Shown: positions 100 to 21,539 of the stretch, one piece after another
Numbering within the stretch: position 1 is the first letter of the stretch
Layout: each line of letters starts with the position of its first letter
From: a virus
Length of the DNA: 64,000 nucleotides
Virus record (IMG/VR): IMGVR_UViG_3300018080_000020
Coordinates: 1 to 64,000 of that record
Reading direction: 5' to 3' (one strand)
The notes under the pieces: model-generated
Told to the model about the DNA's origin: nothing
The model's input: only the letters and a program-made list of their open reading frames with translations
The model's database searches: none
Made by a program: the position numbers and the translations under genes

Positions 100-175
100 T
101 GGAGCTACTGGTAGGATTTGAACCTACAACCATGTGCTTACAAGGCACGTGCTCTACCGTTGGAGCTACAGCAGC
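100..175 (-). tRNA. tRNA-Thr (anticodon TGT)
   Basis: Full cloverleaf on the minus strand. The acceptor is 7 bp with one G-T pair, the anticodon loop CTTGTAA gives TGT (reads ACA), the T loop is canonical and CCA is encoded at 100-102. It stands apart from the main array, on the other side of the small virion genes. Confidence 0.95.
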
Positions 176-182
176 TTATTTA

Positions 183-971
183 TTAACTAAGTATCGCATG
201 ACCGTAAAACCTAAGAATGAACTGACCAGCAGTGTACGTACCTTCTGAGGCTGTAGTATCCCCTTCAGTCATATAGATATAGTCATTAGTAGTTATTGTG
301 GTGGGAAGAATATTCTGATACAGACTGCCAATTGCAAGACCGCCTGTGTTAAACAGATAATCATTGCTGGCTGCCTCATCATACCCAAGCTCTCCACCAG
401 AGTTTAAGGTTATGTTAATATCTGCAGTCGTGTCAGTACCTGCAGGTGTCTCAAGGCAAATAAGCTCAACCTTGTATACAACACCGTAAGTTGCAGTCAC
501 AATCTTACCAATGTATGCATCTGGTGCTTCTGTCACAAGGCCGATAACATCGTCAGCAGCATCACCTTTAACCCCAAGACCTGTTAGGTCAATCTGAATC
601 TCCGTACAAATATCACCGTTAGGTAGATTGTAGCGATACGTCTTTGGGGCAACCCCAGTTCCGATGGCTCCGGCCCCGTGCTCTGCTGTTTCTGCAGATC
701 CAAGAGCAGTCACCTCGCCAGTCACATTACCAGTAACATTTCCTTCTACATTGCCAGTAACGTTTCCTGTTAAATCACCAGTGACATCACCTTCAACATC
801 ACCAGTAAGATTCCCAGTCACATTATTATTTATAGTACAACTTGAAATAGTCTTGTTTGTCAAAGACATAACTGCTGAAGGAAACCATCTATCAAATACG
901 TCTGAAAGAACCTTCTTAGCCTTTGAATCAACACCATCAAGTATATGAGCATAATCTCTCAGGTTAGCCAT
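183..971 (-). CDS. Virion protein with collagen-like G-x-V-T-G repeats
   Basis: 262 aa, start ATG after AGGAGG. Residues about 48-90 are short repeats of the type GNVTGDVEGDVTG, which suggests an elongated beta or collagen-like trimeric stalk. The following domain (about 95-262) is clearly paralogous to the whole of the neighbouring 198-aa protein: both share a GDA..D.IGL segment, a VY..E.ICLETP segment and a C-terminal FI/VIRFYGH. A fibre or appendage tip role is inferred from composition and from grouping with virion-type genes. No enzymatic motif is visible. Confidence 0.7.
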   Translation of the reverse strand: MANLRDYAHILDGVDSKAKKVLSDVFDRWFPSAVMSLTNKTISSCTINNNVTGNLTGDVEGDVTGDLTGNVTGNVEGNVTGNVTGEVTALGSAETAEHGAGAIGTGVAPKTYRYNLPNGDICTEIQIDLTGLGVKGDAADDVIGLVTEAPDAYIGKIVTATYGVVYKVELICLETPAGTDTTADINITLNSGGELGYDEAASNDYLFNTGGLAIGSLYQNILPTTITTNDYIYMTEGDTTASEGTYTAGQFILRFYGHAILS

Positions 972-985
972 GGTCTACCTCCTTT

Positions 986-1582
986 TTAGAAGCCGGGATG
1001 ACCATAGAATCTGATAACGAATTTACCAGCACCATAAACACCAGTTGTGGCACCAGTATCGCCTTCTCCAAGGTAAAAGTAGTCATTAGCTGTAAGCTTA
1101 GGAGTATTATCCACAGCCATTTCACCAACAACCCAGTCTCTCGCAGCAGCAATGACTGTATCATCTACAGCACCATCATATGCCACGTCATTATCATCTT
1201 CTGCCATAAGGTCAATGTCCTGCTCAAATGTAGCAGTTGCCTCAGTAGGAGTTTCCAAACAGATCATCTCTATACGGTAAACATAACCATACTCAGCAAC
1301 AGTGTACTGATCGAAATAGGCTGCTCCACCAGCAGCAAGGCCGATAGCATCACCCTGAGCGTCACCCTTACAAGCAAGGCCTTGGATGTCAAGTCTGTGC
1401 TCAACTATCTTTATACCATTTACAGTGCCTGTAAGCTTTACTGGTTCCTCTCCTGTTCCAAGAAACCCGGCACCGTAATTAGGTGTAACTACTTTTAAAA
1501 AGTCAGGATTCGTTAACGCATCCAGAACAACCTTTCTTGTAGTCGAGTCTAAAAGTTGTAAATCATGATTGCTTATTGCCAT
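986..1582 (-). CDS. Virion protein, paralogue of the 262-aa repeat protein
   Basis: 198 aa, start ATG with AAGGAG upstream. It matches the C-terminal domain of the downstream 262-aa protein along its length (KGDAQGDAIGL, VYRIEMICLETP, VYGAGKFVIRFYGH) but lacks the glycine-valine repeat stalk. The pair therefore arose by duplication, with gain or loss of a stalk. I infer a surface-exposed structural role. Function is otherwise unknown. Confidence 0.7.
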   Translation of the reverse strand: MAISNHDLQLLDSTTRKVVLDALTNPDFLKVVTPNYGAGFLGTGEEPVKLTGTVNGIKIVEHRLDIQGLACKGDAQGDAIGLAAGGAAYFDQYTVAEYGYVYRIEMICLETPTEATATFEQDIDLMAEDDNDVAYDGAVDDTVIAAARDWVVGEMAVDNTPKLTANDYFYLGEGDTGATTGVYGAGKFVIRFYGHPGF

Positions 1583-1631
1583 TGTTCATTTCTCCTTGTT
1601 AGTATGAGCTTAGTATTAAGACCCGTTTAAA

Positions 1632-2219
1632 TTAATAATTATCTATATCTACTTCTTCCCATACGTAATGGAAGGACATAGAAGCACCAGTAGCTACTGT
1701 TGAGTCAGTCACAACAGCGTAGCCCGGTGAAAGAATAATACTACCTTTAAGGTCAAGAATATTTGGGCCTTGTCCACCATACTTAACGGAGTCAGCACCC
1801 TGACCAAGTTCAGCAACTGTCTTACAAACAACTGGTGCTACAATAGTAGCAGCTTCGTCTGCAAGGGCTTGTGAATTCATAGCTCCACCAGCCTTAGCTG
1901 TCTTAACAGTCAACTGAGCAGCAAGACCGGACACAGTAGTAATAGCAAGTGATAGGATAGACTCACCAGTAACAGCATCCTTTGTTGCCCAACCGAACTC
2001 ATGAAGAATATAGAACTTACCTGATGTGGCAGGATTACCAAGGGCAAGACCAGTAAATGTCGTATTAAGTGTTGTAGAACAGTCAACAACTGTGGCTGTG
2101 TTAACATAAAATAGCCTGTCTTCAAGTGCTGCTCTCGCAAGGTCACTTCTTACAATAGGGCTTCCGTTAGGATCTACAAGAACAGGTAGTCCTAACCCGG
2201 CATTAGTTTTTCCGTACAT
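1632..2219 (-). CDS. Putative virion structural protein
   Basis: 195 aa, ATG preceded by AAAGGAG. It is rich in small and beta-branched residues (Ala, Thr, Val, Gly), has no signal peptide, membrane segment or catalytic motif, and resembles phage decoration or appendage proteins in composition. It sits in a same-strand run with two pairs of paralogous virion-type genes. I do not recognise the family. Confidence 0.6.
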   Translation of the reverse strand: MYGKTNAGLGLPVLVDPNGSPIVRSDLARAALEDRLFYVNTATVVDCSTTLNTTFTGLALGNPATSGKFYILHEFGWATKDAVTGESILSLAITTVSGLAAQLTVKTAKAGGAMNSQALADEAATIVAPVVCKTVAELGQGADSVKYGGQGPNILDLKGSIILSPGYAVVTDSTVATGASMSFHYVWEEVDIDNY

Positions 2220-2263
2220 AATTTTCTCCTTTACTCGTTATACATTGTTATTTTGTTAGTAGG

Positions 2264-2428
2264 TTAAACTCTCTCATCCTTTACCCACATACCGTTGTGC
2301 CAAATATACTGCTCACCAGTATCTACAAAATAAATAGTAGATCCCTCAGTGATCCCAGAGCTCGGTCTGGGATCTGAGGAATGAGCTTGCCAATGGTATG
2401 TCTTATGCATAATTTCTACAACAGCCAT
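2264..2428 (-). CDS. Small protein, virion-type
   Basis: 54 aa. The start is the ATG at 2428-2426, because AAGGAGG lies 5 nt upstream; the reading frame is open further upstream but that part overlaps the next gene and has a non-coding composition. The sequence has a short beta-rich motif (STIYFVDTGEQYIWHNGMWV) typical of small phage tail or fibre-associated proteins. Function unknown. Confidence 0.6.
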   Translation of the reverse strand: MAVVEIMHKTYHWQAHSSDPRPSSGITEGSTIYFVDTGEQYIWHNGMWVKDERV

Positions 2429-2438
2429 GGTAACCTCC

Positions 2439-2963
2439 TTAAATTCCTTGTGGCAAATTATCAGGATGTGGATACACAGGCCCAACAACTTGATAGACTG
2501 TTGCAAGAGCGTTAATATTAGTTGTGCCAAGAGTACAACCATTACCATCAATAAGAACGATAGCAATACACACGTAGGTGCTTGGGTCAAACATAGGAAT
2601 CTTACATTCAACGTCAGCATCAAGTGCTAAGTCTCCGGCAAGGTCAATACGTAGTCTGCCATCTGCGTCTGCAAATACTGCAAGGTACTGACTGTATGTG
2701 TCAGGCACTACAAAGCCTTCAGCATCACCCTCAACACTAATTGTTGATGTGTCTGAAGACCAGTCAGCATCATCCTCTACTGTCAATGATGGGATAAGAA
2801 CACCATCAATATAACACATAGCAGTTCCTGTTGTAGCAGGATCTGCAGCAGCAAAGGCTACTGCTTGTGTAGCTATATTGTATGTGTTAGCAAATGCCAT
2901 CAGCATTTCAGCAGCATTATGATTAAACAAAGAGGCATAGTTTGAGTCGTTATAATCTCCCAT
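2439..2963 (-). CDS. Virion protein, paralogue of the 230-aa neighbour
   Basis: 174 aa, ATG after AGGAGG. N-terminal (Y.IATQ.V), middle (IDGVLIPSLT) and C-terminal (FDPSTYVC; GPVYPHPDNLP) segments match the adjacent 230-aa protein, so the two are a tandem duplication. This copy lacks the carbohydrate-binding-like insert seen in the neighbour. I infer a structural role. Confidence 0.65.
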   Translation of the reverse strand: MGDYNDSNYASLFNHNAAEMLMAFANTYNIATQAVAFAAADPATTGTAMCYIDGVLIPSLTVEDDADWSSDTSTISVEGDAEGFVVPDTYSQYLAVFADADGRLRIDLAGDLALDADVECKIPMFDPSTYVCIAIVLIDGNGCTLGTTNINALATVYQVVGPVYPHPDNLPQGI

Positions 2964-2975
2964 AATATCCTCCTC

Positions 2976-3668
2976 TTAGTTTTTAGGCAGGTTAGCTACT
3001 GAAGGGAACACAGGCCCAATCTGTTGGTAAAACGTTCCATCAGTTCCAAAGTCTACACCACCGTCTGTGTCACCAAATGTAACAGCAGCAGATGCAGCAT
3101 CATTAGCATAGTCAATCCAGCCAACAACACAGTAGACTGATGGATCAAAGTAAGGCACATCAGGTGTAGGTGCTGTACCGATAGCAGTATCGTCAGACGC
3201 TCTCCAAACACCAAGAGTGCCATCAGCATCTGCAGTTACCATAATAAGAATACGGTAATCGTCTGCAAGTTCTTGTCCAGCCAAGTTAGGTAGTGCTTGC
3301 CAGTTAGAGTCACCGTCAGTAGGCTTTGTGTTCTCTGTTGATGTGTGTGCTACCAAGCACTTCCAGTACTTAACGCTTGAAGATGCTGCTGTACCAGTAT
3401 ATACAGTAGTATCGGCTGAGTAAGCTGTACCAGCAGCCCATGCTGTCGTAATTTCGTCTGATGTAATCAGAAGCTCAGCATCAGCAGTAAGTGCCGGAAT
3501 GTACACACCATTGATTACACATGACGCTGTACCAGTTGACTGAATGTTGTAGACGTTAGTACCATCTACAGCAATAGTCTGTGTTGCCATGTTGTACGTA
3601 GTCATGAACGCAGCAAGGTGTTTCATGTGTACGTGTGAGAATTTACTTCCCCAATTGTTAGTTGCCAT
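2976..3668 (-). CDS. Virion protein with carbohydrate-binding-like insert
   Basis: 230 aa, start ATG with AAAGGAG upstream. The framework matches the 174-aa neighbour (VINGVYIPALT; FDPSVYCV; GPVFPSVANLP). Between about residues 73 and 128 it carries an extra segment with W.AGTAYS.DT.VY, YWKCLVAHTST and a final W, the usual pattern of CBM5/12-type carbohydrate-binding modules. That makes host-surface binding plausible. First virion gene after the tRNA array. Confidence 0.65.
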   Translation of the reverse strand: MATNNWGSKFSHVHMKHLAAFMTTYNMATQTIAVDGTNVYNIQSTGTASCVINGVYIPALTADAELLITSDEITTAWAAGTAYSADTTVYTGTAASSSVKYWKCLVAHTSTENTKPTDGDSNWQALPNLAGQELADDYRILIMVTADADGTLGVWRASDDTAIGTAPTPDVPYFDPSVYCVVGWIDYANDAASAAVTFGDTDGGVDFGTDGTFYQQIGPVFPSVANLPKN

Positions 3669-3687
3669 AGTTATTTCTCCTTTGTTT

Positions 3688-3711
3688 GGACGGTTACCAG
3701 CAAGTCCGTCC
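3688..3711. other. Hairpin between tRNA array and virion genes
   Basis: Inverted repeat GGACGG (3688-3693) and CCGTCC (3706-3711) with a 12-nt loop, just upstream of the ribosome-binding site of the 230-aa gene. No T run follows, so it may be a processing or 5' stabilising hairpin rather than a terminator. Confidence 0.4.
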
Positions 3712-3746
3712 TGTTATTAATCAGTTGCTGGTTGTCAGGTTAGAAG

Positions 3747-3826
3747 TGGTAGCCTTGAGGGGAATTGAACCCCTGTCCATGGATTGAAAGTCCATGCACT
3801 TTATGCCAGTTAAGTTGTACAAGGCC
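3747..3826 (-). tRNA. tRNA-Glu (TTC)
   Basis: Minus-strand cloverleaf; the anticodon stem ATGGA/TCCAT encloses CTTTCAA, giving TTC (reads GAA). CCA is encoded. Only 2 nt separate it from tRNA-Cys, which suggests one polycistronic tRNA transcript. Confidence 0.93.
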
Positions 3827-3828
3827 AT

Positions 3829-3902
3829 TGGAAGCCGTGTTGGGAATTGAACCCAAAACAGACGGTGTTGCAGACCGTAGCCAACCCAGTTGGATCACGG
3901 CT
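3829..3902 (-). tRNA. tRNA-Cys (GCA)
   Basis: Acceptor AGCCGTG/CACGGCT, anticodon stem ACGGT/ACCGT enclosing CTGCAAC, anticodon GCA. CCA encoded. Confidence 0.93.
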
Positions 3903-3926
3903 ATGTGGAGGCCCCGAAGGGCCGTA

Positions 3927-4001
3927 TGGTAGCCCCGGTAAGAATCGAACTTACTTCAAACACCTTGTAAGGATGTCATCCATCCATAGGATCTCAGGGC
4001 T
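3927..4001 (-). tRNA. tRNA-Val (TAC)
   Basis: Acceptor AGCCCTG/CGGGGCT with one T-G pair, anticodon loop CTTACAA giving TAC (reads GTA). CCA encoded. Confidence 0.92.
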
Positions 4002-4003
4002 GT

Positions 4004-4077
4004 TGGTAGTCCAGAATGGATTTGAACCATTTTCTGAGCCTTATAAGGACTCTGCTCTACCATTGAGCTACTGGACG
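4004..4077 (-). tRNA. tRNA-Ile (TAT), reads ATA
   Basis: Anticodon stem GAGTC/GGCTC encloses CTTATAA, so the anticodon is TAT and it reads the rare codon ATA directly, unlike the usual bacterial lysidine-modified CAT tRNA. The first acceptor pair is a C1-T72 mismatch. CCA encoded. Confidence 0.88.
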
Positions 4078-4080
4078 TTA

Positions 4081-4159
4081 TGGTTGAGAGGGAAGGATTT
4101 GAACCTTCGCATACTTAGGATTTCACCCTAAAGCTACTACCAGACTGAGCTACCTCTCA
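4081..4159 (-). tRNA. tRNA-Phe (GAA)
   Basis: Acceptor TGAGAGG/CCTCTCA, anticodon stem TTAGG/CCTAA enclosing GTGAAAT, anticodon GAA. CCA encoded at the end. Confidence 0.9.
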
Positions 4160-4165
4160 ATATTG

Positions 4166-4255
4166 TGGAGGAAGGTGAGGGATTTGAACCCCCATGGCTG
4201 TTACACCAATGCTGTTTTCAAAACAGGTAGACTGTTCCCCACTGTCAAACCTTCC
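4166..4255 (-). tRNA. tRNA-Ser (TGA)
   Basis: Class II tRNA with a long variable arm. Acceptor GGAAGGT/ACCTTCC, anticodon loop TTTGAAA giving TGA (reads TCA). Its 5' end overlaps by 11 nt the 3' end of the HNH endonuclease gene. Confidence 0.9.
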
Positions 4256-4601
4256 CAAGCTCTTCATGTATCTCGCAGTGACAGTTTGCACATACTAAGA
4301 TACATTTTTCAGCTTCTTTTAATGCTGCTTTAAAGGACTTATTATAAAGTAAAGTAAAAACATTCCCCTCTTTTTTTGTTGGATTTGTATGGTGGAATTG
4401 TAAAGTTGGCAAAGAATCATACCCACATTTTATACACTTACCACCAAACTGTTTTACAAGTTTATTTTTCTTATGTATCCTATTAGCCTTTCTTTTCTCT
4501 CTATAACAAGCCAAGCATCTATAAGAATTATTTCGTCCTTTCCTTTTCCGGTGAACCGTAAGACCGTGTTTAGGACACTCACGTTCCTCATAACGTGCCA
4601 T
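4245..4601 (-). CDS. HNH homing endonuclease-like protein
   Basis: 118 aa. The start is ATG 4601-4599 because AGGAGG sits 6 nt upstream; an earlier in-frame ATG would place that site inside the gene. The protein is basic, with two Cys pairs (C..C near residues 33-36 and CIKCG near 56-60), a LQFHHTNP segment and CANCHCEIH at the C-terminus, the His-Me-finger HNH layout with zinc-binding cysteines. It sits between two tRNA-Ser genes, the stop codon lying inside the next tRNA, which fits a mobile nicking endonuclease inserted in the tRNA array. An operator-like palindrome is just upstream. Confidence 0.85.
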   Translation of the reverse strand: MARYEERECPKHGLTVHRKRKGRNNSYRCLACYREKRKANRIHKKNKLVKQFGGKCIKCGYDSLPTLQFHHTNPTKKEGNVFTLLYNKSFKAALKEAEKCILVCANCHCEIHEELGKV

Positions 4602-4620
4602 TGATTCCCTCCTGTTAATA

Positions 4621-4636
4621 TTCACTTGTGAGTCAA
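4621..4636. promoter_or_regulatory. Operator-like palindrome (site a)
   Basis: TTCACTTGTGAGTCAA; the reverse strand reads TTGACTCACAAGTGAA. One copy of the recurring TGACTCAnAAGTGA motif, 20 nt upstream of the HNH gene start on the minus strand. Confidence 0.6.
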
Positions 4637-4656
4637 TTTAAAGAAAAAAAAAAATT

Positions 4657-4743
4657 TGGCGATAGGTGCTGGATTCGAACCAGCAGAGCTTGTTAGACTC
4701 TACAGGTTAGCAACCTGCTGCATTACCATTCTGCCAACCTACC
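4657..4743 (-). tRNA. tRNA-Ser (GCT)
   Basis: Class II tRNA with long variable arm. Acceptor GGTAGGT/ACCTATC, anticodon loop TTGCTAA giving GCT (reads AGC), discriminator G, CCA encoded. It overlaps the stop codon of the 74-aa gene and is followed on the minus strand by a T-rich run. Confidence 0.92.
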
Positions 4744-4963
4744 GTGTATATTTTTCATATAAGTCCATAATCTCGTCTGTCAATGTATACCTATCATGAT
4801 ACTTATTTAGGACAACGTTGAAGCACTCACACGCATATAAAAGGAGTTCTTCAACGGTCATCGAGTTAAGTTGCTCATACTCGTCAAAGTGAGCGTCCAT
4901 ACATCGATCACACGAACAGTCTTCATCATGAAAACACCTGAATAGAATCTCTCTATCTATCAT
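4739..4963 (-). CDS. Small cysteine-containing protein
   Basis: 74 aa, ATG with AAGGGGAG 4 nt upstream. Acidic, largely helical by composition, with CSCDRC near residues 17-22. Its stop codon TAG lies inside the 5' end of tRNA-Ser(GCT), so both cannot be mature from one transcript. I do not recognise the family. Confidence 0.6.
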   Translation of the reverse strand: MIDREILFRCFHDEDCSCDRCMDAHFDEYEQLNSMTVEELLLYACECFNVVLNKYHDRYTLTDEIMDLYEKYTR

Positions 4964-4986
4964 ATAACTCCCCTTTATACGTTATT

Positions 4987-5060
4987 TGGTAGTTCCAAAT
5001 GGGATCGAACCATTATCTAACGATTATCGGTCGTTTGCTCTACCTTTGAGCTATGGAACT
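4987..5060 (-). tRNA. tRNA-Ile (GAT)
   Basis: Acceptor AGTTCCA/TGGAACT, anticodon loop CCGATAA giving GAT (reads ATC/ATT). CCA encoded. Confidence 0.94.
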
Positions 5061-5061
5061 A

Positions 5062-5139
5062 TGGAACCCCTGAGAGGATTCGAACCTCCATAATTTTACG
5101 GCTTAGAAGACCGTTGCCATTCCGTTTGACTACAGGGGC
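5062..5139 (-). tRNA. tRNA-Arg (TCT)
   Basis: Acceptor GCCCCTG/CAGGGGT, anticodon stem ACGGT/GCCGT enclosing CTTCTAA, anticodon TCT (reads AGA). CCA encoded; 1 nt from tRNA-Ile(GAT). Confidence 0.92.
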
Positions 5140-5142
5140 TTA

Positions 5143-5218
5143 TGGACTCGCAGGTGAGATTCGAACTCACATGTTGCTTGGTTCGTAGCCAAGTGCCTGT
5201 CCGTTAGACTACTGCGAG
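5143..5218 (-). tRNA. tRNA-Arg (ACG)
   Basis: Acceptor CTCGCAG/CTGCGAG, anticodon loop CTACGAA giving ACG (reads CGN family by A-to-I editing). CCA encoded. Confidence 0.92.
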
Positions 5219-5220
5219 TC

Positions 5221-5294
5221 TGGTAGGCCGTAAAGGAATCGAACCTTTGTAGAATGGTTAAAAGCCACTTATTCTGCCATTGAATTAACGACCT
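5221..5294 (-). tRNA. tRNA-Lys (TTT)
   Basis: Acceptor AGGTCGT/ACGGCCT, anticodon loop CTTTTAA giving TTT (reads AAA/AAG). CCA encoded. Confidence 0.93.
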
Positions 5295-5299
5295 AAAGA

Positions 5300-5374
5300 T
5301 GGCTGCAACGGTAGGGGTCGAACCTACATCTTTCCGGTTAACAGCCGGACGCTTTACCATTAAGCTACACTGCA
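5300..5374 (-). tRNA. tRNA-Asn (GTT)
   Basis: Acceptor TGCAGTG/CGTTGCA with wobble pairs, anticodon stem CCGG/CCGG enclosing CTGTTAA, anticodon GTT. Discriminator G, CCA encoded. Confidence 0.93.
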
Positions 5375-5379
5375 GTGTT

Positions 5380-5452
5380 TGGTTGCAGGGGTTGGAGTCG
5401 AACCAACGGAGGCGAGCTTATGAGACTCACGTGAATACCCATTCTCCCTGCC
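5380..5452 (-). tRNA. tRNA-Met or Ile2 (CAT), atypical D arm
   Basis: Anticodon loop CTCATAA gives CAT. The acceptor has a G1-A72 mismatch, the D arm seems reduced to GAAT/ATTC with a 4-nt loop, and the anticodon stem has two T-G pairs and no GGG/CCC, so it is unlikely to be a normal initiator. It could be elongator Met or a lysidine-type Ile tRNA. CCA encoded. Confidence 0.75.
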
Positions 5453-5456
5453 ATAC

Positions 5457-5530
5457 TGGAAGCCCAGACTGGAATTGAACCAGTGTCACGTGATTCAAAG
5501 TCACGTAGCCATCCATTAGCTTACTGGGCA
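5457..5530 (-). tRNA. tRNA-Gln (TTG)
   Basis: Acceptor helix GCCCAG/CTGGGC with an unpaired T1-T72; a weak first pair is usual in bacterial tRNA-Gln. Anticodon loop CTTTGAA gives TTG (reads CAA). CCA encoded. Overlaps the 3' end of the 76-aa gene by 10 nt. Confidence 0.9.
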
Positions 5531-5751
5531 TTATGTCTTCTTTTTACAAAGTCTTCAATATCCGCATGAAAAATATCCGGGTAGTCCTGTGCCCATCGAA
5601 TAGCTGCCTCTCTAAGAGGCTTGCAAGGCCACCTGTATCTATCCTTGATATTACCAGCAAACTCACGTCTGTACCCATGGTACGCAATATACATTAGTTC
5701 CCGGTCATCTAACTCATGTGCCGGGTGCATTGGATCTGCAAAGCTCATCAT
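5521..5751 (-). CDS. Small conserved-type phage protein
   Basis: 76 aa. Its ATG overlaps the stop of the upstream lipoprotein gene (TAATG), so the two are translationally coupled. Basic and aromatic-rich with a YHGYRREF segment. The stop TAA is inside tRNA-Gln. I do not recognise a family. Confidence 0.65.
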   Translation of the reverse strand: MMSFADPMHPAHELDDRELMYIAYHGYRREFAGNIKDRYRWPCKPLREAAIRWAQDYPDIFHADIEDFVKRRHNAQ

Positions 5752-6200
5752 TATTGAAACATCCCCAAGAGAGCCTTTTGCTGCTTAATGTGCTTACGCA
5801 GTAGCCCAATGTCAAAATCGTTGATTGACATTTCGATGCCCTGAAACTGAGTGAACGTTTCTGTTAACAGTATGAGCTCTACCGAATAGCTGTTGTTCAA
5901 GTACCCAGTAACCAGCATAATGTAGTTTGTAAGCTCATTATACGATACAGACTCAAGCATACTCTCTACAGAATCAAGGAATGCTAAACACTCAGCCTTT
6001 GTGATAGCATCAGACTTGATTAGCTCTACGTTTATAAGCTTAAACATCAAGTTCAACTGCTCAGGACTCGTATGCATTGTGTCGCATACCTTACAGATAA
6101 CACTATTATCTGCCTCAGGTGTTGCACATATCTGGCTTGTTGCACAACCGGACAACAGGAACAGAAAAGCAACACAACCAGTTAAAAGTTTCTTGAACAT
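5751..6200 (-). CDS. Putative lipoprotein
   Basis: 149 aa. The start is ATG 6200-6198, which has AAGGAGG 9 nt upstream and begins a classical lipoprotein signal peptide (MFKKLLTGCVAFLFLLSGC, lipobox LSGC); an earlier ATG lacks a ribosome-binding site. The mature part is helical with no catalytic motif. It could be an outer-membrane lipoprotein for superinfection exclusion or a spanin-like part; this is inference. It is embedded in the tRNA array. Confidence 0.75.
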   Translation of the reverse strand: MFKKLLTGCVAFLFLLSGCATSQICATPEADNSVICKVCDTMHTSPEQLNLMFKLINVELIKSDAITKAECLAFLDSVESMLESVSYNELTNYIMLVTGYLNNSYSVELILLTETFTQFQGIEMSINDFDIGLLRKHIKQQKALLGMFQ

Positions 6201-6329
6201 TTTGGTATGCCTCCTTTTATATTGAGAACAACAAGTACCATTCCAGTGTATATTTTTGTCAGGTAATTTTAGTGTCACTAAGTTATCCCTCAACCATCCT
6301 CAACACACCTTAGTTCTCAAAATATTTAT

Positions 6330-6404
6330 TGGGGTGATCGGTCAGAGTCGAACTGACGTTAGAGGGGTCACAGTCCTCAGCGTTACCGTTACGCCACGAC
6401 CACC
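6330..6404 (-). tRNA. tRNA-His (GTG)
   Basis: Acceptor GTGGTCG/CGATCAC with discriminator C73 and an encoded G at position -1 (6404), the identity elements of tRNA-His. Anticodon loop CTGTGAC gives GTG. CCA encoded. Confidence 0.95.
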
Positions 6405-6414
6405 ATAAGTTGTT

Positions 6415-6489
6415 TGGTGGAGGCAGGAGATTCGAACTCCATCTTCTTAGGTGCAAACCAAGTGCTCTCCCGGGTTGAGCTATACCCCC
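6415..6489 (-). tRNA. tRNA-Ala (TGC)
   Basis: Acceptor GGGGGTA/TGCCTCC, anticodon loop TTTGCAC giving TGC (reads GCA). CCA encoded. Confidence 0.92.
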
Positions 6490-6496
6490 ACATGTA

Positions 6497-6520
6497 CCAG
6501 AAGGCTACATTTGCTTCTGG
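6497..6520. other. Hairpin in tRNA spacer
   Basis: CCAGAAG (6497-6503) pairs with CTTCTGG (6514-6520). On the plus strand it is followed by ATTTTTT and so looks like a terminator, but no plus-strand gene precedes it. In the minus-strand tRNA transcript it would be a spacer stem-loop. Role unclear. Confidence 0.35.
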
Positions 6521-6532
6521 ATTTTTTATTAT

Positions 6533-6607
6533 TGGCGATCTGTACCGGACTTGAACCGATAGCTTCTGGGAGACAACCAGATATGTTACCATTGACACCA
6601 ACAGACC
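6533..6607 (-). tRNA. tRNA-Asp (GTC)
   Basis: Acceptor GGTCTGT/ACAGATC, anticodon stem TCTGG/CCAGA enclosing TTGTCTC, anticodon GTC. Discriminator G, CCA encoded. Confidence 0.93.
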
Positions 6608-6608
6608 G

Positions 6609-6682
6609 TGGTCAGAGATGCTGGAATCGAACCAACCACACCACCCTTCCAAGGGGCAGCAGACACCTTGCCGTTATCTCTG
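6609..6682 (-). tRNA. tRNA-Pro (TGG)
   Basis: Acceptor CAGAGAT/ATCTCTG, anticodon loop CTTGGAA giving TGG (reads CCA). CCA tail encoded; 1 nt from tRNA-Asp. Confidence 0.92.
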
Positions 6683-6683
6683 A

Positions 6684-6760
6684 TGGTAGCCAAGGAGAGA
6701 TTCGAACTCTCATCTAATCGGGTTTAAGCCGATCAAGTCTGCCGATTGCATCACTTGGCT
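6684..6760 (-). tRNA. tRNA-Leu (TAA), short variable arm
   Basis: Acceptor AGCCAAG/CTTGGCT, anticodon stem ATCGG/CCGAT enclosing CTTAAAC, anticodon TAA (reads TTA). The D region resembles tRNA-Leu, but only 5 nt (TAGAT) separate anticodon and T stems, where bacterial tRNA-Leu has a long variable arm. Confidence 0.88.
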
Positions 6761-6763
6761 ACA

Positions 6764-6840
6764 TGGTAGCGGATCTGGGAGTCGAACCCAGAGCATCTTG
6801 ATTTTGAATCAAGCACGTCTGCCAGTTGCGCCAATCCGCT
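6764..6840 (-). tRNA. tRNA-Leu (CAA), short variable arm
   Basis: Acceptor AGCGGAT/ATCCGCT, anticodon stem CTTGA/TCAAG enclosing TTCAAAA, anticodon CAA (reads TTG). Variable region only ATGCT (5 nt), again without the class II arm. CCA encoded. Confidence 0.88.
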
Positions 6841-6846
6841 AAAGTT

Positions 6847-6924
6847 TGGTAGCCACTCAGGGATTCGAACCCTGACTGATATGGTTCTAAGCCATACGCC
6901 TCTGCCAAGTTGGGCTAAGTGGCT
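6847..6924 (-). tRNA. tRNA-Leu (TAG), short variable arm
   Basis: Acceptor AGCCACT/AGTGGCT, anticodon stem TATGG/CCATA enclosing CTTAGAA, anticodon TAG (reads CTA). Variable region only TCAGT (5 nt). It is the third Leu tRNA in a row with this form. Its 5' end overlaps the stop of the 96-aa gene by 2 nt. Confidence 0.88.
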
Positions 6925-7213
6925 ATATTCTTCTAAACATATCGATAACAGTGCTTGGATCATTGGTTGGTGTAACAGAATCACCGTTCAAGAATCTCAC
7001 TAACTCATCAAGCATTACCCTGAAGGCTACAAGCTGCGATCTTATATCTGTTGATGGAACACCGATAGCGTCCAGATCTGCAGTGTCCATTCGCTGTAAG
7101 AATTCTGACAGGTCACTTAGCCTGTTAACCATCCTGTTAAGATCCGTAGCTACACTTTGAATTACACTGTATAAAGTACTTTTACTTGGAATTTGTGCAT
7201 CGTTTAACGCCAT
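6923..7213 (-). CDS. Small protein within tRNA array
   Basis: 96 aa, ATG with AAAGGAG 5 nt upstream. Mostly helical, acidic-basic balanced, with a Leu/Val heptad-like stretch (about 25-80) that could form a coiled coil. No motif recognised. The TAG stop overlaps tRNA-Leu(TAG). Confidence 0.65.
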   Translation of the reverse strand: MALNDAQIPSKSTLYSVIQSVATDLNRMVNRLSDLSEFLQRMDTADLDAIGVPSTDIRSQLVAFRVMLDELVRFLNGDSVTPTNDPSTVIDMFRRI

Positions 7214-7286
7214 TACTGCTCCTTTAAATTAGTTAGTCTGTACTTATCCCTACATTGTATTATACAAAACAGTATAATTTTTTGTA

Positions 7287-7370
7287 TGGTGGGTCAGGAT
7301 GGAGTTGAACCATCACAGCCCGGGGGCCACAGATTTACAGTCTGCTTATCTCGCCAATGAATGCCGACCC
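7287..7370 (-). tRNA. tRNA-Tyr (GTA)
   Basis: Class II tRNA with a GC-rich variable arm. Acceptor GGGTCGG/CTGACCC, anticodon loop CTGTAAA giving GTA. CCA encoded. It shows that the phage retains long variable arms where expected (Tyr, Ser). Confidence 0.93.
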
Positions 7371-7384
7371 ATAAAGTGGCTTGT

Positions 7385-7614
7385 TTGGTTATAGAGGCAC
7401 AAGCCAATAAGCCTCTCTGTAGCTCTCCCACGGTCAACGCATCGTCCAGTTGCTTATTCCCGGCTCTCTACGTTTGAGATGGTCATAACCGTGTTCTTGA
7501 CCGTATGCTACTAAATTATTTCAGTGGGAGGGGGTTGCTTGAAGTTGGGAATCTTAAGTTACGCTGCGCTGCAGTCCAACTCCCCTCTATCCCATTTTAT
7601 TTTGACCACTGAAA
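7385..7614 (-). ncRNA. Structured non-coding RNA in tRNA array, RNase P-like features
   Basis: No gene fits here, but the minus strand is full of long complementarities: TTTCAGTGG/CCACTGAAA (7519-7527/7606-7614), ATAGAGG/CCTCTAT joining both ends (7391-7397/7584-7590), GAAGTTGG/CCAACTCC (7541-7548/7576-7583), ACGGTCAA/TTGACCGT (7430-7437/7497-7504) and a GTAGC/GCTAC extension. Near the 3' end it reads ACAGAGAGGCTTATTGG, similar to the RNase P RNA CR-V segment ACAGAAnnnGGCTTAT, and it ends in an AACCA. The other RNase P core segments are not convincing by eye. A structured RNA is likely; its class is open. Confidence 0.6.
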
Positions 7615-7617
7615 GCT

Positions 7618-7687
7618 TGGCAGGAAGGTGGGGAATCGAACCCCACTACAGAGTTTTGGAGACTCCGTTGATCCCAGATCCCGACCT
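7618..7687 (-). tRNA. tRNA-Trp (CCA anticodon), degenerate
   Basis: Anticodon stem GGAGT/ACTCT encloses CTCCAAA, giving CCA (reads TGG); T arm TGGGG/CCCCA is canonical and the 3' CCA is encoded. However, only about 14 nt separate acceptor and anticodon stems, so the D arm is truncated, and the acceptor has two mismatches. It may be a decaying or specialised tRNA. Confidence 0.65.
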
Positions 7688-7692
7688 ATATT

Positions 7693-7770
7693 TGGAGCGA
7701 CCTGTGGGAATCGAACCCACGTCCTACAGCTTGGAAGGCTGGCATCTTATCCAGTTAAGACGAAGATCGC
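7693..7770 (-). tRNA. tRNA-Gly (TCC)
   Basis: Acceptor GCGATCT/AGGTCGC, anticodon stem CCAGC/GCTGT enclosing CTTCCAA, anticodon TCC (reads GGA). CCA encoded. First tRNA of the array in transcription order. Confidence 0.93.
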
Positions 7771-20141: not shown

Positions 20142-20903
20142 ATGGCTAAGTCTAAGCTTCATCAGTTACTGGCAGTGGAAGGTGACCTTGGTGGTATCGC
20201 TGGCAAGGTTACCCTTGAGACAAGAACCAATTTTACAAAGCACCCTGACCGTTATATGGGCCATCGTACTTCAGTCGAACCCTTTGATGAGGGTGCAGCT
20301 AAAGAGGCTGATGACATTAAGGCCTTGGATGATACGGTCAAGGCTAAACTGGACTATACTGCGGAACACCTGTCCAGATACTTGGACTGTGTCCTTCAGA
20401 AGGAGGCCACTAATCAGGTCGCTTGTGCTGATCTGGTAGTGGACGGTGTCACTATCGCTACTAACCTTCCGGCTACCTTCTTGCTTGGCTTGGAGAAGAA
20501 GCTGAAAAATATTCGTGATAGCATCTATCAGGCTATCCCTACACTGCAGCCCGGTGTACACTGGGAGCTTGATCCCAGTCAGGGTGAGAACGTGTACAAG
20601 CGTGTACACCCTGAGGAACGCTTTCGCACAAAGCGTGTCCGTAAGAACCACGTGCTGGCTGAGGCTACTAAAGAACACCCGGCACAGGTAGAAATGTTCA
20701 CTGAAGACGTGAACGTAGCCCGGGTGGTAAAGAACGTCTGGTCTGGGATGATCAGTGTGGCTGAGAAGTCTGCCCTGTTAGGCCGGGTAGAGAAGCTTCT
20801 TCGTGGAGTTAAAAAGGCACGTCAAATTGCCAATAATACTCAAGTGGTAAAGGTCACTGTCGGCAAAGAGTTGTTTGACTATATTAATGCTAACAGTGTT
20901 TAA
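20142..20903 (+). CDS. Conserved protein next to permuted tRNA-like RNA
   Basis: 253 aa, ATG 6 nt after AGGAGG. Begins MAKSKLHQLLAVEGDL; mostly helical, with a DLVVDGVTIATNLPATFLLGLEK middle, a KKVRKNHV-like basic patch (FRTKRVRKNHV), KEHPAQVEMFTEDV, and a basic C-terminal helix KLLRGVKKARQIANN. From memory, proteins of this overall shape recur in many bacteria and phages without known function. The structured RNA at 20905 starts right after the stop, so protein and RNA probably form one transcript and may form an RNP. This is inference. Confidence 0.75.
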   Translation: MAKSKLHQLLAVEGDLGGIAGKVTLETRTNFTKHPDRYMGHRTSVEPFDEGAAKEADDIKALDDTVKAKLDYTAEHLSRYLDCVLQKEATNQVACADLVVDGVTIATNLPATFLLGLEKKLKNIRDSIYQAIPTLQPGVHWELDPSQGENVYKRVHPEERFRTKRVRKNHVLAEATKEHPAQVEMFTEDVNVARVVKNVWSGMISVAEKSALLGRVEKLLRGVKKARQIANNTQVVKVTVGKELFDYINANSV

Positions 20904-21054
20904 TAGTTTGGGTTAAACTAAGCCTTAGCTTGAGCTTTAAAGGGTGGTGCTGGTATTGATACCTTAATTTGCACTGCTTTTAGCGTCAGTCTTTTGACCC
21001 AACAAGCTCAGTAAAGGTCTGCAAAATCCAGTAATCGGCATAGAGTCTGCCTTT

Positions 21055-21092
21055 AGTCAAGGTCGGGGGTTCGAATCCCTTACGCCCCACCA
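21055..21092 (+). tRNA. Permuted tRNA, 3' half (T arm, acceptor, CCA)
   Basis: AGTCA (anticodon stem 3' side), AGGTC variable loop, GGGGG-TTCGAAT-CCCTT T arm with two G-T pairs, ACGCCCC acceptor, A73, CCA (21090-21092). It has no D arm or matching acceptor upstream; its partner lies downstream at 21111. Confidence 0.8.
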
Positions 21093-21110
21093 CTTAAAAA
21101 GAACACTTGA

Positions 21111-21140
21111 GGGGCGTTAGCTCAGTGGTAGAGCATGACA
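21111..21140 (+). tRNA. Permuted tRNA, 5' half (acceptor, D arm)
   Basis: GGGGCGT acceptor, TA, D arm GCTC-AGTGGTA-GAGC, A26, TGACA. GGGGCGT pairs perfectly with ACGCCCC at 21082-21088, and TGAC with GTCA at 21056-21059. No T arm follows. The anticodon loop is not continuous, so no anticodon can be assigned. Confidence 0.8.
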
Positions 21141-21314
21141 ATTTAAGCTTAAGTCTCTATGGTTGATGGAAGAGTGCAGGTATCATCATTTTGACATCGA
21201 TGATAATACAACTTGGGGGTGACAGGAAGGTTATCCAGTCATCCCCACTTATAACCCTAATATCGGCTTGGCCCCGGACATAGCCGGGGTCAGGCCAACA
21301 TCTTCGGAGGAAAC

Positions 21315-21539
21315 ATGATAGAAAACTTTGCAAAGGTTATAGAGATAGCTAATAAAGACTATGACGGACACTTTACTATTTTTAAGTTTACAACTGGCTA
21401 TAAGGTAGTGTTCGGAACTCCGGGCATGGATGTGAAAGATCGTAAGATCCTTTATAAACAGGTTCCTCAGTGTATGGATTTAGATAAAGCGTTTCTTCAT
21501 GCTATCGCTCATAAACCTGTTTTAAATTTTGGAGGATAG
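21315..21539 (+). CDS. Small hypothetical protein
   Basis: 74 aa, ATG after GGAGG. Contains FKFTTGYKVVFGTP and a C-terminal helix. Unknown. First gene after the structured RNA. Confidence 0.65.
   Translation: MIENFAKVIEIANKDYDGHFTIFKFTTGYKVVFGTPGMDVKDRKILYKQVPQCMDLDKAFLHAIAHKPVLNFGG

Follow-up and report, generated by a model that had tools for sequence, protein, structure and literature searches.

The element described here is a conserved phage RNA of ~345 nt that is coupled to the gene for a DUF7873 protein and is absent from Rfam. This conclusion follows from its covarying stems, its retained NCCA, and its presence at every fetched DUF7873 locus with enough downstream sequence. The phages that carry it are many and unrelated, and the structure of the RNA is near certain. 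On balance, it is probably a structural RNA that forms a ribonucleoprotein (RNP) with DUF7873, in which the tRNA-like domains are mimics that recruit a tRNA-recognizing host factor and not decoding tRNAs.

The window is the whole 64,000-nt stretch of DNA that was analyzed and is nearly all of a 65,938-bp IMG/VR phage record. Two halves of a permuted tRNA sit in the gap after the DUF7873 gene, the T-arm/acceptor/CCA half (21056-21092) followed by the acceptor/D-arm half (21111-21139). Every pairing and coordinate that a sequence-only reading had claimed for these halves was found in place. The parts of the locus are as follows.

20142 to 20903, plus strand: DUF7873 gene (PF25283, 253 aa, Pfam E 1.1e-70), directly upstream of the RNA; presumed partner.
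20905 to 21248, plus strand: entire structured noncoding RNA, intergenic, ends approximate; minimum free energy -111.1 kcal/mol, z -3.2; organization homologous in ~90 loci.
20905 to 21018, plus strand: 5' domain, with helices and ARCKY-type hexamer repeats.
20908 to 20913 with 20997 to 21002, plus strand: 5' domain helix P1, TTGGGT/ACCCAA; permutation support, 30 loci vs 22 expected (2 of 1000).
20931 to 20937 with 21004 to 21010, plus strand: possible crossing helix of the 5' domain, TGAGCTT/AAGCTCA.
21019 to 21059, plus strand: 3'-side strand of the anticodon-side arm (CTGCA, CATAGAG, then anticodon stem GTCA), supported by P2 duplex energy and anticodon-stem covariation.
21019 to 21023 with 21175 to 21179: outermost flank helix, CTGCA/TGCAG.
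21039 to 21045 with 21155 to 21161: outer flank helix, CATAGAG/CTCTATG.
21056 to 21059 with 21136 to 21139: anticodon stem, GTCA/TGAC.
21060 to 21092, plus strand: variable loop, T arm, acceptor 3' strand, A73, and CCA of the permuted tRNA, supported by the pairings and by covariance model R1 (86 bits).
21065 to 21069 with 21077 to 21081: T stem.
21082 to 21088 with 21111 to 21117: acceptor stem, ACGCCCC/GGGGCGT.
21089: A73; 21090 to 21092: CCA.
21093 to 21110, plus strand: spacer between the CCA and the acceptor 5' strand, 18 nt in the window.
21111 to 21139, plus strand: acceptor 5' strand, full D arm, and anticodon stem 5' strand.
21120 to 21123 with 21131 to 21134: D stem, GCTC/GAGC (4 bp).
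21140 to 21179, plus strand: internal loop (TAAGCTTAAG) and 5'-side strand of the arm (CTCTATG, TGCAG).
21180 to 21209, plus strand: hairpin at the site of the relatives' second tRNA-like domain.
21215 to 21246, plus strand: 3' hairpin with the conserved loop AGGNNA (AGGTTA at 21228-21233 in the window); its outer 9 bp covary.

The 348-nt region out-folds all 100 of its shuffles (z -3.2), and the fold includes the acceptor, T, D, and outer helices proposed earlier. A pseudoknot, also proposed for the 5' flank, can form. Its first helix has modest comparative support, but the crossing helix has none. At 20905-21300, ARAGORN calls no gene and Rfam gives no match at gathering thresholds. A second strong GC hairpin lies at 21265-21297, between the 3' hairpin of the RNA and the next ORF. 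Elsewhere in the window, positions 100-7770 of the minus strand hold 24 ARAGORN tRNA genes, all CCA-ended and covering 19 amino acids; ARAGORN calls no tRNA-Glu, and Rfam adds a further tRNA at 3750-3826.

Relatives of the RNA were reached only by using the DUF7873 protein as bait; a BLASTN search of phage records with the RNA returned none, and a strict DNA pattern of the RNA had no match in viral contigs. The bait sets were composed of viral contigs (11, then 80, with a second scan giving 285 relatives), 73 records of isolate phages (Vibrio, Rhizobium, Gordonia, Klebsiella, Serratia, Arthrobacter, Rhodococcus, Pseudanabaena, and Microcoleus), and 4 actinomycete replicons. Most relatives have a gap of 400-700 nt after the DUF7873 gene. 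Every fetched locus with enough downstream sequence holds the element (~90 phage loci and the 4 actinomycete replicons), as do all 3 loci taken from genome contigs, which are probably phage contigs. Hosts of the element-bearing phages include Rhizobium, Vibrio, Klebsiella, Gordonia, Arthrobacter, Rhodococcus, and cyanobacteria.

At nearly all loci, a descriptor scan placed a permuted tRNA on the DUF7873 strand, no more than 900 nt past the gene. None of 2,120 shuffled regions matched this descriptor, and 1.43 Mb of other sequence gave 3 matches. Loci that the descriptor missed were recovered by R1 (L028, L042, L058, L060, L084, L095, L098, and, weakly at 25.9 bits, L012), except for two cut off by a contig end. 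In the window, the best R1 hit is 21041-21158 at 86 bits, and the next, at 57.5 bits, falls within the array of tandem tRNA genes.

Across 56 aligned loci, four helices show 330 both-side changes vs 109 when shuffled and a covariation score of 0.73 vs 0.20, a comparison that is partly circular because the descriptor required acceptor, T, and D pairing. In the same alignment, 88% of cells in the 4-bp D stem are paired. Unbiased pairing tests were run because some of these pairs were required by the descriptor itself. With the T arm and D arm located separately and acceptor pairing not required, all 7 acceptor pairs form in 70 of 75 loci, with 2.1 expected and 0 of 5000 permutations reaching this number. 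The acceptor sequences are distinct in 59 of the 75. The anticodon stem, unused in selection, has a mean of 4.20 of 5 pairs vs 2.59 permuted (0 of 5000). Beyond it, the P2 duplex of the arm (anticodon stem excluded) reaches -17.6 vs -10.7 kcal/mol permuted. In the 3' AGGNNA hairpin, a mean of 8.2 of the nine outer pairs form, vs 4.7 permuted (n=30). The loci are mutually related, so all these counts fall short of independent events, but they are deeply diverged, since their DUF7873 proteins are 31-66% identical to that of the window. An absence of compensatory changes in the acceptor and anticodon stems had been named in advance as grounds for rejecting the structure; the homologues show strong covariation instead. 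Chance and assembly artefact are ruled out by the shuffled regions, by the rarity of matches in other sequence, and by the unbiased pairing in homologues.

ARCKY hexamers are over-represented in the 5' domains (155 vs 78 shuffled), with a period of 6 (13 vs 0.8 pairs at distance 6), and may mark protein-binding sites. The repeats lie on several 5'-domain strands, at 20905-21018 in the window and in relatives, and change together between phages (AGCTTC vs AAACTC type). Where the window has its hairpin at 21180-21209, 24 relatives have a complete tRNA of normal order, several with unusual anticodons. These embedded tRNAs lack CCA in 22 of 24 cases, although 109 of the 150 remaining tRNAs at those loci encode it. 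Actinobacterial members carry a second permuted tRNA instead, all but one without CCA. The tRNA bodies and D arms follow varied isotype styles (Leu, Asn, and Glu/Gln types), and the discriminator is T in 27, A in 20, G in 20, and C in 8 of 75 loci. Together with the distinct acceptors, these observations indicate that shape is kept and not amino-acid identity.

The main rival explanation is a two-piece chargeable RNA. RNase P and 3' trimming would cut out the spacer, the pieces would be held together by the acceptor stem with the CCA free, and the product would be aminoacylated and feed into translation or a different aminoacyl-tRNA pathway. In 63 of 75 first copies, the acceptor is followed by NCCA. 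Just ahead of the acceptor, the bases -3Y, -2R, and -1U/A are similar to those that precede ordinary tRNAs of these phages, a hint of genuine processing. The gene order is shared with permuted two-piece tmRNA (RF04321), as are the spacer between the CCA and the 5' half and a P2-like arm in place of the anticodon arm. Against charging, the discriminator and the 3:70 pairs vary freely; the window has G3:C70, and the alanine identity pair G3:U70 of tmRNA occurs in 2 of 75. The spacer, counted from N73, is 6-95 nt in relatives. L007, L008, and L070 have no CCA, their acceptor helix simply extending further, and elsewhere the CCA is paired with UGG in a spacer hairpin. Such hairpins, which pair the CCA with UGG or lengthen the acceptor stem (L007, L008, L013-L016, L050, L063, L064, L070, L078, L080, L101, and L103), would mask the CCA end unless opened. 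The permuted-tmRNA model scores 13.9 bits against a cut-off of 47, and SmpB was not found in 18 records. A two-piece chargeable RNA is rather unlikely.

The low permuted-tmRNA score and the lack of SmpB in those records, with a full 4-bp D stem in place of the degenerate D arm of permuted tmRNA and no G3:U70, exclude tmRNA itself. No shared tag reading frame was seen by eye in the translated 3' flanks of 7 relatives. Gordonia phage Phendrix, which has the DUF7873 RNA, also has an Rfam tmRNA match of 89 bits beside a tRNA array (L020:563-1091).

The closest known relative of the element is YrlA, a bacterial Y RNA. A permissive Rfam scan of 20800-21400 gave one clear signal, YrlA (RF02553), at 38.3 bits and E 7e-7 (cut-off 69), aligned full-length to 21040-21163; homologues score 26-38 bits. 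In both RNAs the T arm and one acceptor strand precede the other acceptor strand and the D arm, and the permuted domain stands on a long stem made by the flanks. The tRNA-like domain of YrlA is circularly permuted (PMC11472068); DusA and TruB modify it, and it recruits PNPase (PMC8394870). A prophage-borne YrlA has been recorded before (PMC8190616). YrlA is 90-150 nt and is partnered by Rsr/Ro60 and PNPase, whereas the element is ~345 nt, has covarying parts outside the tRNA body, extra domains, and an encoded CCA, and adjoins DUF7873. The sequence-only reading had stated that permuted tRNAs are known from algae and archaea but not, to its knowledge, from bacterial phages. This was incomplete, as permutation was already known in bacterial YrlA (PMC11472068) and is found beside Ro60 in two of the present phages.

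One alternative is that the element is a divergent YrlA-type Y RNA working with host Ro60/Rsr, with DUF7873 an independent neighbor. The YrlA alignment favors this, and Y RNAs linked to Ro60 in these phages reach no higher score, at only 30-37 bits. However, TROVE/Ro60 is found in just 3 of 18 records and not in that of the window. In the two records examined closely, RHph_Y65 and G006, TROVE has its own permuted-tRNA Y RNAs elsewhere, so the element is not simply the Ro60-linked Y RNA of these phages. It is also about three times longer, and its place is always after DUF7873. A diverged Y RNA is improbable. Rhizobium phage RHph_Y65 carries a Ro60/TROVE gene and a neighboring permuted-tRNA Y RNA (L111:1312-1420 and L111:2080-3648). 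Another locus has a Ro60/TROVE gene with four permuted-tRNA Y RNAs in tandem (L112:2477-3087 and L112:442-2124). Phage Y RNAs are probably under-annotated, given the low Rfam scores of those that neighbor Ro60.

More improbable still is a regulatory 3' UTR of the DUF7873 mRNA, in which the tRNA-like fold would be a processing or stability element that sets the protein level. The RNA is always downstream of DUF7873 on the same strand, and its 3' end is a GC-rich hairpin, often followed by T-rich sequence. A processing site would need neither so large and elaborate an RNA nor second tRNA-like domains and a conserved CCA, and another ORF lies between DUF7873 and the RNA in L007, L008, and L042.

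The permuted tRNA genes of algae and Thermofilum produce decoding tRNAs through BHB splicing. The element shares with them a 3' half upstream of the 5' half and complementary acceptors. It differs in that no anticodon loop can be rebuilt. Joining the halves does not form a 7-nt loop with U33, since U33 is present in 21 of 60, positions 32 and 38 pair in 31 of 60, and the stem often exceeds 5 bp. With no preference for U33 or purine 37, an often extended stem, and no intron core, a decoding tRNA in permuted form was rejected. Of the earlier description, a permuted tRNA in a large structured RNA, the permuted body, extended anticodon-side arm, full D stem, and lack of an evident tag stand; likeness to a permuted tRNA gene of the algal or archaeal kind is not supported. 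Barely credible is a permuted intron-exon system, in which the flanks would be a ribozyme that circularizes the exon and RNase P and Z cleavage would release a decoding tRNA: the order of the halves is that of permuted tRNA genes and the isotype of the body varies as if any tRNA could serve as exon, but group I and II intron models have no match even at E 10 (20800-21400), purine 37 occurs in 35 of 60, and the U33 and 32:38 counts are those given above.

GOLLD and ROOL resemble the element in being large, ornate RNAs of phages that lie close to tRNA arrays, but show no sequence match to it. GOLLD can contain (pseudo) tRNAs (PMC12286853, PMC6582537). The tRNA embedded in GOLLD is not described as permuted, and no DUF7873 link is known for GOLLD or ROOL. 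Neither had an Rfam match at gathering thresholds in the window or in 23 homologous loci, or at E 10 for the region. At one further locus, a 666-aa ORF that matches no Pfam family is followed ~220 nt later by a strong permuted-tRNA element (L110:47-2047 and L110:2266-2379). The C-terminal part of this ORF is TerD-like by eye, and the pair is possibly a third RNP of such kind.

The most likely function of the RNA, as inferred here, is that of an RNP scaffold that docks tRNA-binding host factors. The permuted tRNA body (acceptor, T, and D arms with CCA) folds atop a long arm that takes the place of the anticodon arm. To this are added the 5' domain with its hexamers, a slot for a hairpin or a second tRNA-like domain, and the 3' hairpin. 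The existence of the RNA, the folds of its tRNA body, arm, and 3' hairpin, its CCA pattern, and its strict link to DUF7873 are demonstrated. DUF7873 may bind the RNA, with the hexamers or the AGGNNA loop as candidate sites. Acting much as a Y RNA does, the tRNA-like domains could then recruit RNase P, tRNA-modifying enzymes, EF-Tu, or PNPase. This reading is favored by the position of the RNA after DUF7873 in every fetched locus with enough sequence, and by covariation in the acceptor, T, D, and anticodon stems, the arm, and the 3' hairpin. It is further favored by tRNA bodies that keep shape and not amino-acid identity, by the lack of a rebuildable anticodon loop, by the mostly CCA-less embedded tRNAs with odd anticodons, and by YrlA, which shares the topology, is a docking site for PNPase, and is a substrate of tRNA-modifying enzymes (PMC8394870, PMC11472068). 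Retention of NCCA in so many loci is beyond the need of a mimic and argues against a pure one, as do the tRNA-like leader bases before the acceptor. More tentatively, DUF7873 and the RNA may be a new class of phage RNP that displays a permuted, CCA-ended, possibly charged tRNA body, often with a second CCA-less one, to capture or redirect host tRNA or translation machinery during infection.

On the protein side, all 59 aligned homologues of the window's DUF7873 match the same Pfam family. Its AlphaFold model is confident (pLDDT 90.9, pTM 0.69). No confident structural match was found against the PDB by Foldseek (best E 0.06), against BFVD (best E 0.011), or by VIA-align, where the best was 3kdq, of unknown function (Z 8.9, rmsd 8.1). 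An hmmsearch against PDB sequences found nothing. These fold and sequence searches reveal no recognizable RNA-binding fold in DUF7873, which counts against the RNP reading. Linkage to the RNA provides a first functional hypothesis for the family. In the open-access literature, no paper was found that names DUF7873 or that concerns a phage permuted tRNA.

Already known are a permuted tRNA body in Y RNA (PMC11472068) and in permuted tmRNA, and tRNAs inside GOLLD (PMC12286853, PMC6582537). The combination, size, conserved CCA, second domain, and strict DUF7873 linkage appear to be undescribed in the open-access literature. The RNA has the look of part of an undescribed tRNA-mimicking machine of RNA and protein. 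It is present in isolated phages of Gordonia, Arthrobacter, Rhodococcus, Rhizobium, Vibrio, and Klebsiella, which makes RNA-seq and genetics feasible in laboratory strains. As a widespread and apparently undescribed structured RNA, it joins the few large phage RNAs known, such as GOLLD and ROOL, and it makes swapped tRNA halves a recurrent design among phage RNAs.
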